From positions 1 through 20,165 of the IMG/VR virus record IMGVR_UViG_3300040801_002438: a DNA stretch of 20,165 nucleotides. One strand, given 5' to 3'. Each line of letters opens with the position of its first letter. Positions within the stretch are counted from its first letter, which is position 1. Under the pieces are notes generated by a model. It saw only the letters and a list, made by a program, of their open reading frames with translations. It was not told where the DNA came from and made no database searches. This DNA is from a virus. Of this stretch, positions 1 through 20,165 are shown piece after piece. A program made the position numbers and the translations under genes.

Positions 1-501
1 AATGGCGGCTTGTTTGACAGGGTTAAACCCATGACTGGAGAGATAGTTAAAGAGGAGCTCTTCTCCGGTACCCATCATGCAAAGGTTTCTTTGTCTGCTG
101 ATAGCTCTTTTGAGGAGCTTTTCTCTACTTATCTTGGAGCCTCTTACTGCCGCATGAGCTTTAGAAACTTGTTTGACTCTTTGGGAGGAGGTCATTCTAC
201 TCCACTTAATACGTTCAGCTTCAGACTGACTTCTGATATTTACTCCCGCATCGATGAGGTGGCGTCTAATAACTGCCCTGCTCACATTAAAGAATTTTGC
301 GATGCTATTCTCGCTCTCCAGCTTGGTGACGTACATATCGATGATTTTATTGGTATCGAGATATATTGTGTTCCGAAGCTTATGTCTTTTTTCGTTTTGG
401 ATCAGATTACTAGCATTTCCCATGATGATTACTCCGGTGATGTTTTTAATTATGAAACAGCGTCTGGCACCTACATATCAGACGACTTCCTCGTAGGCAA
501 T
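1..501 (+). other. Intein (C-terminal portion) inserted before the CRC motif
   Basis: The segment ends with V-F-N-Y-E, about six residues, then T-Y, then F-L-V-G-N followed by Cys. This is the layout of intein blocks F and G, with the terminal Asn at codon 499-501 and the +1 Cys at 502-504. The penultimate residue is Gly instead of the usual His, a substitution known in some active inteins. If spliced, Cys168 of the visible protein becomes the first C-extein residue and restores a CRC head-protein motif. Between the left edge and block F are about 140 residues I cannot match to an endonuclease. The precise N-terminal boundary is outside the window. Confidence 0.66.
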
Positions 502-537
502 TGTCGCTGTTACGCCATTCCCATAGTGAGGTTTTAA
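1..537 (+). CDS. Phage gpF/SPP1-gp7-like head morphogenesis protein, C-terminal part with intein (partial)
   Basis: The reading frame is open to the left edge, so the start lies outside the window; 178 residues are visible. The last 11 residues begin CRCYAIP and match the conserved NCRC-type end of Mu gpF/SPP1 gp7 minor head proteins, which act in head assembly beside the portal. Everything before that Cys looks like the C-terminal part of a Hint/intein domain, with a block F/G-like string (GDVFNYETASGTY, then FLVGN) ending in Asn directly before Cys. The downstream protease, decoration and capsid genes fit a portal-gpF-protease order. No LAGLIDADG motif is visible in the roughly 165 residues present, and the N-terminal splicing blocks must be upstream. 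The stop overlaps the next ATG by one base (TAATG). The gpF assignment rests on the short C-extein plus position and is likely rather than certain. Confidence 0.68.
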   Translation, partial: NGGLFDRVKPMTGEIVKEELFSGTHHAKVSLSADSSFEELFSTYLGASYCRMSFRNLFDSLGGGHSTPLNTFSFRLTSDIYSRIDEVASNNCPAHIKEFCDAILALQLGDVHIDDFIGIEIYCVPKLMSFFVLDQITSISHDDYSGDVFNYETASGTYISDDFLVGNCRCYAIPIVRF

Positions 538-1553
538 TGAAGACCAAGAACGCACAAACACTTCCTGAAATTTACTATGGTCTTCACATGGCTCCTGGTG
601 TGGCCGAGTACAGAGAGACTCCTGAGGATTACTATCGTATATTTATTGATGAACCAGTTCTAAAAAAAATGGACAAGACCTTTCGTGGGAAGCCTGTATA
701 TGTCGATCACGTAGATCAGGTTGATTTAGAAAACCTTCAAGAAACCGCAGACGGATATGTGGTTGAAAGTTTTTATAATCAGGCCGATGGGAAGCATTGG
801 GCAAAATTTATTGTAGTGAGCGATGAGGCCAAGCAGAGAATCAAAGAAGGATGGCGGCTTTCTAATGCTTATCTCCTCACAGACACAGGTGGGGGAGGCC
901 AGTGGCATTCCGTAGACTACGATAAGACAGTGCTCAACGGTGAATATGAGCACCTGGCCATTGTAGACAGTCCTAGGTATGAGGAATCTATTATCCTTAC
1001 TCCAGAGGAGTTCAAGGAATACAATGAACAAAAGACAAGTGAACTTTTACAAATAGCAAATTCTAAGAAAACTAATAGAGGAGAAAAAGGAATGCTAAAG
1101 TTTTTTAAACGAGAAAGCGTTGAAAACAGCAAGGATCTCGAAAACCACATGGTCGTGCTACCTAAGTCCAAAAGAGAGGTGTCCATTATTACTCTTGTGA
1201 ATGAGATGGATGAAGTGGCCATGTCCTCAGATGAAGCAAAAGAGGTGGATTTAAAAGACCTTGTAAAGCTCAATGAGGAAGAGATATCTGTAGAGGAGCT
1301 TCTTCAAAAGTACAACCAAGTCTGTAAAGAGAATGAAGAGATGAAGGTTGAACTAGAGAATATGAAAAAAAAGAACGAAGAGGAAGAGCCTGAAGAAGAC
1401 AAAGAAGAGAAAGCTTCTAATAAGGATGGCGGAAAGAATTTTAAAAAGTTAGCAAACGCATCCGAGGATTTTGAAGACTTTGTCAGCGATCAGCCATTAG
1501 ACCTTGGTTTTGATAAAGCTGCCAGAGGGCAAACACGATACGGTTCAAAATAA
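537..1553 (+). CDS. DUF2213-type capsid maturation protease with C-terminal scaffold-like tail
   Basis: The 338-aa protein is predicted to cleave head proteins during prohead maturation and perhaps to act as its own scaffold. The N-terminal half carries the family pattern: GKPVYVDH (His58), WRLSNAY (Ser109) and EYEHLAIVDSPR (His139). These correspond to the His and Ser of U35/S78-like prohead proteases (GxPv..H, S.GY, NHvAlV..R). The C-terminal half (about residues 240-305) is highly charged, Glu/Lys-rich and coiled-coil-like, as in protease-scaffold fusions. I chose ATG 537, which overlaps the preceding stop as TAATG and has GTGAGG upstream. A longer in-frame TTG at 501 would add 12 unrelated residues. 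The catalytic assignment comes from motif spacing and is not proven. Confidence 0.78.
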   Translation: MKTKNAQTLPEIYYGLHMAPGVAEYRETPEDYYRIFIDEPVLKKMDKTFRGKPVYVDHVDQVDLENLQETADGYVVESFYNQADGKHWAKFIVVSDEAKQRIKEGWRLSNAYLLTDTGGGGQWHSVDYDKTVLNGEYEHLAIVDSPRYEESIILTPEEFKEYNEQKTSELLQIANSKKTNRGEKGMLKFFKRESVENSKDLENHMVVLPKSKREVSIITLVNEMDEVAMSSDEAKEVDLKDLVKLNEEEISVEELLQKYNQVCKENEEMKVELENMKKKNEEEEPEEDKEEKASNKDGGKNFKKLANASEDFEDFVSDQPLDLGFDKAARGQTRYGSK

Positions 1554-17979: not shown

Positions 17980-18795
17980 TCAATCATTGTCTGCCAACCC
18001 ACAGTCCTCTTCGCCGTTATACGCTGAGGGCCTTAGATGCTTATTAGTATCTATTGCTCCTTGCAGTGTGGTTTTAAAGTCTCCCATATTCCGAGCCAGA
18101 GCAAGCGTGTCTTTAACGAAGCATTTACCAGCCCAACCTATCTTTCCATCGGGGCCTGGAATAGTGACTGGAGTCAGGTTGCCGAACAAAGAGGCTAATA
18201 AAATGCTTTGGTTGAATTGGTCTATGTTTAAATTTGTACTAGCAAGTAATTCGCTCAAGAATGATATTTTAACAGGAAGTATTGAGTTGTGTATCAGCTT
18301 TATTGTCTCGGCCTCTTCACTGCTAAGGCTATACACAGGGATTGATTTAAATATATCTTTGTAAAGGTCTGCTACATCATTCATAGCCGATTGATTGTCA
18401 GACCCTAAGATCACAGCCTGTTGATTCTTAAAATCATCAACTGCACTCCGCTCAGTCAAAAACTCAGGATTATAAACAATCTTAAGGCTAGGGAAACCTT
18501 TTGATAGCTTTCTAGTGCTGCCTATCATCATTGTTGATTTAATGATTACCACGCCTTTGTATTTATTCTGCTCTAACATGAAAAGTGCGGTGTGTACCTC
18601 GTTTATCCATGCTCCTGTGAGCCTGTGGAATGGAGTGGGAACACATACAAATACAAAATCTGAATCATAAAGCTTTTCTGGATCTACGCACTTCCACGCG
18701 TCAATATCAAAAACCGATACTTCGTTAAAATCCTTTATCGTCTGATAAACGGCATTCCCAACGGCCCCTATGCCTATAATCCCTATTCTTCCCAT
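17980..18795 (-). CDS. Nucleotide-sugar (UDP-glucose/GDP-mannose-type) dehydrogenase, truncated form
   Basis: The 271-aa enzyme belongs to the NAD-dependent UGDH/ManNAc dehydrogenase family, which oxidises the C6 of a nucleotide sugar to a uronate. Motifs in order: GIIGIGAVGNAV (GxGxxG, residues 5-16), CVPTP (51-55), STMMIGSTRKL, YNPEFLTERSAVDDF with Glu111, ETIKLIHN with Lys166, and GKCFVKD with catalytic Cys225. The protein ends about 45 residues after the Cys, so the C-terminal UDP-binding domain of the usual 390-450-aa enzymes is absent; there is no evidence of a frameshift. AAGGAG precedes the ATG. It is last in the leftward operon. Role: envelope glycan change or another sugar-acid use is inferred. 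Confidence 0.8.
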   Translation of the reverse strand: MGRIGIIGIGAVGNAVYQTIKDFNEVSVFDIDAWKCVDPEKLYDSDFVFVCVPTPFHRLTGAWINEVHTALFMLEQNKYKGVVIIKSTMMIGSTRKLSKGFPSLKIVYNPEFLTERSAVDDFKNQQAVILGSDNQSAMNDVADLYKDIFKSIPVYSLSSEEAETIKLIHNSILPVKISFLSELLASTNLNIDQFNQSILLASLFGNLTPVTIPGPDGKIGWAGKCFVKDTLALARNMGDFKTTLQGAIDTNKHLRPSAYNGEEDCGLADND

Positions 18796-19396: not shown

Positions 19397-19474
19397 CTAA
19401 GACTTCAAGATCATAATAATCAAGCCCACCACCGCGATCAGCAGGATAGGTCTTTCAAAAATAACTTCAATCAT
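19397..19474 (-). CDS. 25-aa single-TM peptide
   Basis: The ATG (19472-19474) overlaps the stop of the LRR-protein gene as ATGA, and the frame gives 25 residues: MIEVIFERP, then ILLIAVVGLIIMIL, then KS. It would form one membrane helix with charged residues on both sides. No recognised family is seen. The coupling to the upstream stop and the clean hydrophobic stretch support translation. It could be a small toxin-like or regulatory membrane peptide, or chance. The 38 nt up to the zinc-ribbon start hold only the short leader frame. Confidence 0.42.
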   Translation of the reverse strand: MIEVIFERPILLIAVVGLIIMILKS

Positions 19475-20165
19475 TCATTCCCACAGAAAAACCGACTAAA
19501 CTCATCGCTTCCAAATCTGCCTTGTGTTAACTCGATAACTTCTTTCACAGTTAGCTCGTCAGGCGCATCTATTGACTCCGTGAAATGCTTCACTCCAGAA
19601 GCGCACGCACCTGTAATTTTACGATAGGCTTGAATCATTTGGGCTTGAGACTTCTTAGTCTCTAAAGTCCATGTGTCATATTCACTCGTATCTCGATCAC
19701 TGATTTTATATTTTAAATCATCAATGGCTTTCTTAAGGGTGTCTCCATGAGAGAAAGTCCAATCACGCTTTACACAGTAACTTATCTCTTTTTTTCCAAT
19801 GATTCTTATCTTAAATACTTCTAGGTCATCCAGCTTCTTAGATGAAATAAGCTTTGCAAATATGCCGTCTGCTAGAACGTAGCCTTTTCCCAGCTTTTTA
19901 AGGAATATCCTAAGGAATATCCTATTGATAGATTGTTCGCTGTTTTCACTCGGCGCTCCATCCAGAGAAGTGAGGTTGTTGTTGTGGCAAAAAAAATTAC
20001 CCCCCACTTCATTAGGGGCACCTTTAAGAGAAGTGAGGCTGTTGTTGGAGCAATAAAAATCACCCCCCACTTCACTCGGAGCCCCTTCAAGTGAAGTCAG
20101 CTTGTTGCTGTAGCAATAAAAATCACCCCCCACTTCATTAGGTGCTCCTTTAAGAGAAGTGAGGC
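19471..20165 (-). CDS. LRR-like repeat protein with conserved C-terminal domain (partial)
   Basis: The leftward frame is open to the right window edge, so the N-terminus is missing; 230 residues are visible. The first 70 residues are three copies of a 21-residue repeat (LTSLxGAPxEVGGDFYCxNN) plus a truncated fourth (LTSLDGAPSE). This is the leucine-rich, GGDFYC-type repeat known from phage and bacterial proteins. After NSEQS comes a C-terminal domain of about 150 residues: GKGYVLADGIFAKLISSKKL, VFKIRIIGKKEISYCVK, MIQAYRKITGACASGVKHF, and an end VIELTQGRFGSDEFSRFF. The repeats should make a curved binding surface, and the partner is unknown. The gene is the first one visible in the leftward operon. 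Confidence 0.68.
   Translation of the reverse strand, partial: LTSLKGAPNEVGGDFYCYSNKLTSLEGAPSEVGGDFYCSNNSLTSLKGAPNEVGGNFFCHNNNLTSLDGAPSENSEQSINRIFLRIFLKKLGKGYVLADGIFAKLISSKKLDDLEVFKIRIIGKKEISYCVKRDWTFSHGDTLKKAIDDLKYKISDRDTSEYDTWTLETKKSQAQMIQAYRKITGACASGVKHFTESIDAPDELTVKEVIELTQGRFGSDEFSRFFCGNE
19968..20165. repeat. 63-bp tandem repeats within the LRR-like gene
   Basis: The element AAGTGAG/AAGTCAG recurs at 19968, 20031, 20094 and 20157, a constant 63-bp period equal to 21 codons. Units share the CCCCCCACTTCA core and differ at scattered, mostly third-position or residue-changing sites. The array continues past the window edge. Confidence 0.85.

Follow-up and report, generated by a model that had tools for sequence, protein, structure and literature searches.

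The window analysed here, a virus contig of 20,165 bases (IMG/VR virus record IMGVR_UViG_3300040801_002438), starts inside a head gene that very probably carries a mobile intein of a phage gpF/MuF minor head protein, the homing endonuclease of which is encoded antisense and in register across nearly the whole intein. At the level of sequence, both frames are conserved, coding constraint lies on the opposite strand as well, empty alleles of the head gene exist, and intein-bearing alleles carry a signature of allele transfer. From these observations, we infer splicing of the intein, translation of the antisense ORF, and cleavage by its product. The intein and the nuclease each belong to known families, and their antisense combination appears to be the new part.

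The intein end and the antisense ORF in the window

Since the record begins inside the gene, the gpF domain, the first cysteine of the intein (C1), and the intein blocks A and B lie outside the window, which holds the last 167 codons of the intein and 141 codons of the endonuclease, and upstream features are taken from relatives. The plus frame of positions 1-537 is open from base 1 to a stop codon at 535-537 and ends in ...SGDVFNYETASGTYISDDFLVGN/CRCYAIPIVRF, where the slash marks the splice junction. The final Asn of the intein is located at 499-501 and the +1 Cys at 502-504, in agreement with the original prediction, made from the letters of the window alone, which had placed an intein C-terminal end exactly before the CRC motif of a gpF-like head protein. 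The window's sense protein matches the parsed intein of a related locus, L051 (blastp, E 1e-23), and its residues 142-176 match PHROG 15127, annotated 'head protein' (8.5e-10). Further downstream, a PHROG search identified a head maturation protease gene and then a major head protein gene (Table 1). A Pfam search of the sense fragment gave no match. As also predicted, the penultimate intein residue is Gly (pair GN instead of HN) and the intein part of the window contains no LAGLIDADG motif.

Table 1 Features of the window discussed in the text
Feature	Position	Strand	Basis or remark
Intein C-terminal part, head-gene frame	1..501	+	Open frame; blocks F/G; N/CRC junction; match to L051
Intein blocks F and G, GDVFNYETASGTYISDDFLVGN	436..501	+	Block F has Asp where His is usual
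C-extein CRCYAIPIVRF and stop, gpF/MuF head protein	502..537	+	PHROG 15127
Head maturation protease gene, next head gene	540..1553	+	PHROG 12864, 9.9e-10
Antisense homing endonuclease ORF (putative), 141 aa present, ATG at 423..421	1..423	-	In register with intein frame; cut by record start
Helix-turn-helix (HTH), residues about 36-60, SENSIAKFFNVSRAVIRRHLIDAG	244..318	-	HTH_7 in relatives; AlphaFold helices of Aaphi23
Start of Vsr-like/EDxHD nuclease domain, GTGEELLFNYLSSHGFNPVKQAAI, conserved E and Q	1..72	-	Alignment of relatives
Shine-Dalgarno sequence GGAG, 8 nt before endonuclease ATG	432..435	-	Sequence; similar in L044 and L051

The original prediction missed an in-register ORF on the opposite strand (423..1), each codon of which is the reverse complement of a head-gene codon. 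From the window's own codon usage, 7.4 stops in the sense and 8.9 in the antisense frame are predicted in this region, and none is observed; control windows in the other genes of the contig were open in this register in 0 of 122 cases. In tblastn searches, the antisense protein matched 54 phage records (best match 44% identity, E 2e-23), and the sense protein gave no match in the same phage collection. The matching sites are annotated as 'minor head protein', 'MuF-like minor capsid protein', or hypothetical protein, and in the loci inspected the antisense match lies on the strand complementary to the head gene. Of the nuclease domain, the window holds the first motif only, the remainder lying beyond the record start.

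With Asp instead of His in block F, the window lacks the start codon found in most relatives. The ATG at 423 with its GGAG sequence would take over, as in L044 (48% identity to the window's copy; GGAG at a spacing of 8) and L051 (AGGAGG at a spacing of 7), the two nearest relatives. The loss of the usual start codon, together with the presence of a single HTH domain where longer relatives have two, would fit a copy that is decaying or dead, with the endonuclease lost or inactive and intein splicing still required. We consider this unlikely, as the replacement start with GGAG at 8 nt recurs in L044 and L051 and all of the 141 visible endonuclease codons are intact; for the family as a whole, a dead copy in the window would be compatible with the antisense homing endonuclease described above.

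The complete element in related phages

The antisense ORF lies in register within a single open MuF ORF in 19 loci, comprising one IMG/VR contig and 18 loci from records of phages or prophages of Aggregatibacter, Vibrio, Idiomarinaceae, Gordonia, Klebsiella, Edwardsiella, Pantoea, Salmonella, Helicobacter, and Pseudomonas. These relatives contain what the original prediction expected upstream, namely blocks A and B and the gpF domain, and their sense order is Cys1, block B (typically TPNHPILT), a long insert, block F (typically GHVYNLET), and an Asn/CRC-like junction. C1, N42, and H43 are invariant and T40 is conserved at >90%, so that the nucleophile and the TxxH motif of block B are present. 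The N-exteins contain Phage_Mu_F in 48 of 59 cases, Phage_min_cap2 in four, and VG15 in one, which supports the assignment of the host protein. An N/C junction is found in 109 of 109 parsed relatives, a count to be read with the fact that the parser itself required N/C and left 50 loci with partial or variant blocks unparsed.

A penultimate His is common in inteins but not required. The last residue pairs of the parsed family are HN (53), SN (42), QN (5), RN (4), KN (3), and GN (2), and this variety speaks against the proposal that the Gly of the window is a sign of conditional splicing. A link of such splicing to head assembly, also suggested in the original prediction, found no support and was dropped. 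The suggestion of a mini-intein with an unfamiliar insert was right with respect to the insert; the mini-intein part does not hold, in view of the homing endonuclease encoded on the other strand.

In the 19 loci, the start of the endonuclease gene falls within block F or close to it, and its stop lies a few codons, mostly 2-20, past Cys1. In 17 of the 19 loci, the block F His codon, 21 codons ahead of the intein end, gives the endonuclease ATG when read as its reverse complement, and this ATG is often preceded by GAGG, which arises as the reverse complement of AAC-CTC (Asn-Leu) codons. Among parsed loci, 68 have a start codon at the block F position, 50 with a Shine-Dalgarno sequence compared to a background of 6%. 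Read on the antisense strand, the sense motif FHGD..EIEII becomes exactly the nuclease core YNLDF..VAVE, and the C-terminal QYWVIRC of the endonuclease is antisense to block B.

Identity of the sense and antisense products

The sense family was recognized as intein by Pfam (PF14890, Intein_splicing) in 68 of 70 members, and its profile gave inteins and Hint domains as best matches in the PDB, with E-values down to 1.7e-11. In the AlphaFold model of the sense protein, the Hint ends (residues 1-66 and 288-325) are confident (pLDDT mostly 88-98) and residues 170-283 of the insert have pLDDT values mostly below 50; the leading Foldseek hits of the model are inteins and Hedgehog Hint domains. The sense insert is mostly meaningless in the sense direction, being the reverse complement of a homing-endonuclease gene.

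In the antisense family, Pfam detected HTH_7 in 38 of 66 members and PF18741 (REase_MTES_1575) in 29 of 66. An hmmsearch with the profile of the relatives against the PDB retrieved 3hrl (7.5e-7) and 3r3p, the catalytic domain of I-Bth0305I (3e-5). The antisense protein of phage Aaphi23 was modelled by AlphaFold with a mean pLDDT of 94.3, including the C-terminal hairpin that is antisense to blocks A/B, and the top Foldseek hit of this model was again 3r3p (1.7e-4, probability 1.00). In the alignment of the 66 relatives (A4), E162 and Q179 (Aaphi23 numbering) are invariant and the acidic residues E162, D188, and E197 are conserved at at least 90%; the His of the EDxHD motif is not conserved in every relative. 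As judged from profiles and predicted structure, the antisense product is an HTH DNA-binding domain joined to a Vsr-like/EDxHD nuclease.

Open frames and selection on the two strands

The generality of the arrangement was assessed with loci selected solely by similarity to the antisense protein, using two IMG/VR scans and one GTDB scan. In all of the 159 loci analysed, of which 140 are distinct, the in-register opposite sense frame is open, and the two other offsets contain stops in every locus (means 17 and 8). The endonuclease never lies in the reading frame of the intein but on the opposite strand (159/159). In those 136 loci whose remaining coding sequence was sufficient for the estimate, the Leu/Ser content of the nuclease and the codon usage of each phage predict 711.6 sense stops, and 0 were observed.

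The strand under selection was deduced from single-nucleotide codon changes in a small set of ten pairs of related loci, two of which share one sequence. The exteins vary mainly at codon position 3, and the insert varies mainly at position 1, which corresponds to position 3 of the antisense gene. Of 1051 changes in the exteins, 82% are synonymous in sense and 10% in antisense, and of 506 changes in the insert, 26% are synonymous in sense and 63% in antisense. The corresponding values are 65% in sense and 26% in antisense for blocks A/B, and 68% in sense and 29% in antisense for the last 38 codons. The difference between exteins and insert is highly significant (chi-square p<1e-100), with the changes within one pair being partly dependent. 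According to this pattern of synonymous sites, the splicing parts are constrained mainly in the sense and the middle mainly in the antisense direction, while both frames are open throughout.

These data bear on three other readings. It is very improbable that the antisense endonuclease gene merely interrupts the head gene, with the element tolerated in the protein instead of being spliced out. Out-of-frame endonucleases hidden in phage genes that have no splicing domain are known, as in the ShiLan domain (PMC11855218), but here the Hint blocks (C1, N42, H43, and the last Asn) are conserved and under sense selection, and the splicing domain is recognized by Pfam and PDB profiles and predicted to adopt a Hint fold. 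Still less credit can be given to an ordinary intein with a novel insert domain on the sense strand, in which the antisense ORF would be a spurious mirror frame. In GC-rich genes, chance alone can leave in-register opposite frames open (66 of 327 control windows), but only the antisense product gave tblastn homologues, it matches HTH and restriction-type nuclease families and has a confident model, the sense insert is largely disordered as modelled, and the strand switch of the synonymous changes already refutes this reading. Finally, RNA-level splicing of a group I intron that contains the endonuclease gene in antisense, for which there is precedent (PMC9548176), was rejected as next to impossible, since intein blocks are encoded in an open sense frame and no Rfam family reached the gathering score in the window or in five relatives searched for a ribozyme core.

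Mobility

Empty alleles with the sequence HEVINCRC are present in the Gordonia phages ChadMasterC and Shivanishola, and in comparison with these, phage Affeca carries at the same place an exact in-frame insertion of 948 nt, i.e. 316 codons. Fosterous and Affeca have identical inteins (nt 874-1821) within an identical tract (nt 793-1886) that extends into the flanks by 81 and 65 nt, the gene being otherwise different. In two Klebsiella loci (L008/L021), the intein differs at 10 of about 900 bases, the regions around it being much more divergent, and L095 and L098, which differ by about 17% ahead of the intein, have 0 differences in the intein and in the rest of the compared region. These patterns are signatures of a recent allele transfer, most probably by homing, with other recombination a less likely source. 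Klebsiella JD001 was considered as a further empty allele and rejected, as its MuF C-terminus differs.

The opposite of the situation in Fosterous and Affeca is observed for the Gordonia phages Vivi2 and Angelicage (L006 and L020), in which the inteins are more diverged than the surrounding exteins, as if two intein versions were circulating within one phage population.

Proposed mechanism and class

Read forward, the gene would encode head protein, the N-terminal intein part (C1, block B), a filler of about 200 or more mostly unstructured residues, the C-terminal intein part (blocks F and G), and head protein again, with the intein excising itself between the Asn and the +1 Cys of CRC. Read backward, a ribosome-binding site and an ATG in or near block F would direct the synthesis of a protein of 230-300 aa with one or two HTH domains and a Vsr-like/EDxHD nuclease. 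This endonuclease would cut intein-less MuF alleles, and repair would copy the element in and co-convert the flanks.

Beyond the individual element, we lean towards the view that these loci represent a widespread, so far unrecognised type of 'ambigrammatic' intein, in which a splicing domain and an unrelated endonuclease occupy complementary strands over the whole element; block F would double as ribosome-binding site and start of the endonuclease and block B as its C-terminal hairpin, and the sense motif FHGD would be only the nuclease core read backwards. If so, the endonuclease would be expressed independently of the late transcription of the head gene, and possibly in antagonism to it. The mobile element would consist of two separate genes on opposite strands that share codons, and provide a natural system for studying how one DNA duplex can code for two enzymes. 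Motifs recorded as conserved in intein databases may be antisense shadows of a nuclease, surveys confined to the host frame overlook antisense endonucleases and would list the inteins concerned as HEN-less, and phage annotation conceals antisense endonucleases within a 'head protein'. Phages of many different bacteria share this arrangement.

Relation to known systems

Canonical inteins contain an in-frame endonuclease domain, usually of the LAGLIDADG type, and intein endonucleases are described as domains of the intein protein. The element described here shares with them a Hint domain split by an endonuclease-coding region and, presumably, homing into intein-less alleles, but its endonuclease is a separate protein from the other strand, the gene of which also overlaps the Hint blocks. 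The I-Bth0305I and EDxHD Vsr-like homing endonucleases were reportedly described by Taylor in 2011 and Dassa in 2009. The antisense product resembles I-Bth0305I (3r3p) in nuclease fold, sequence profile, and association with a phage mobile element, but differs from it in being antisense and dual-coding, codon for codon, with an intein.

The ShiLan domain is likewise a homing endonuclease concealed in a second frame of a phage gene, the gene's own frame remaining open, but it is an HNH endonuclease encoded on the same strand, with no splicing domain and no detectable ribosome-binding site (PMC11855218), whereas the present gene is on the opposite strand and a Hint domain is present. Nuclear group I introns can hold antisense homing endonuclease genes (PMC9548176), so that here too an endonuclease lies opposite the host gene inside a self-splicing element; in that case, however, splicing occurs at the RNA level and there is no second protein frame to keep open. 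According to the available text of the two sources, inteins in MuF or minor head proteins of Jerseyvirus and vKMB36 phages, i.e. in the same host protein family, were noticed earlier with no mention there of an antisense gene (PMC8425127, PMC11162368); their sequences contain the antisense endonuclease. Long antisense dual-coding genes, as far as described in the available text on pop/ompA (PMC7103648) and ambigrammatic narnaviruses (PMC8316113), also yield two proteins from complementary strands, but these are not mobile elements, and in the present case both products are known, unrelated enzyme folds.

An endonuclease encoded codon against codon in antisense to an intein was not found in the literature searched. 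A 2025 preprint on non-canonical actinophage inteins (bioRxiv 10.1101/2025.01.02.630785) is cited in PMC11855218 beside a statement on overlapping frames and could lessen the novelty, so that priority for the antisense-endonuclease intein is uncertain.

Distribution and further observations

The GTDB search of 400 genomes yielded mostly unrelated DUF559/Vsr-like nucleases, with long matches in L188 and L190 only. A free-standing relative of the endonuclease occurs in Acinetobacter phages (L009:2821-3714, and L007), where it directly follows an intein-less MuF gene in convergent orientation, and its opposite in-register frame contains 12 stops. It keeps a C-terminal region resembling that antisense to block B, and may therefore derive from an intein copy.

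The architecture was also observed at other insertion sites. In E. coli phage KMB36, it occupies a different MuF site, SRTSTT/C...KN/CRARDG (L219:2033-4003 (-)), and in Mycobacterium phage Sejanus it lies in the capsid maturation protease gene, V/C...HN/CTIDGKTRPSH; the Sejanus gene and a prophage-like gene borne on a Streptomyces plasmid correspond to L222:494-3805 (-) and L223:2213-4042 (-). In Salmonella phage sam, an endonuclease fragment is annotated as hypothetical protein ORF43 (L221:2736-3137 (+)). At L052:3001-3489, the antisense endonuclease contains an in-frame stop and the intein frame is open, probably a dead endonuclease in a retained intein to judge from the sequence; because of this nonsense codon, some copies of the family may be dead.

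Two further ORFs lie on the minus strand near the far end of the window. One (17980-18795) resembles by eye a nucleotide-sugar dehydrogenase in an otherwise structural region, and the other (19471-20163) has leucine-rich-like LTSLKGAP.EVGGDFYC repeats and runs off the contig end.
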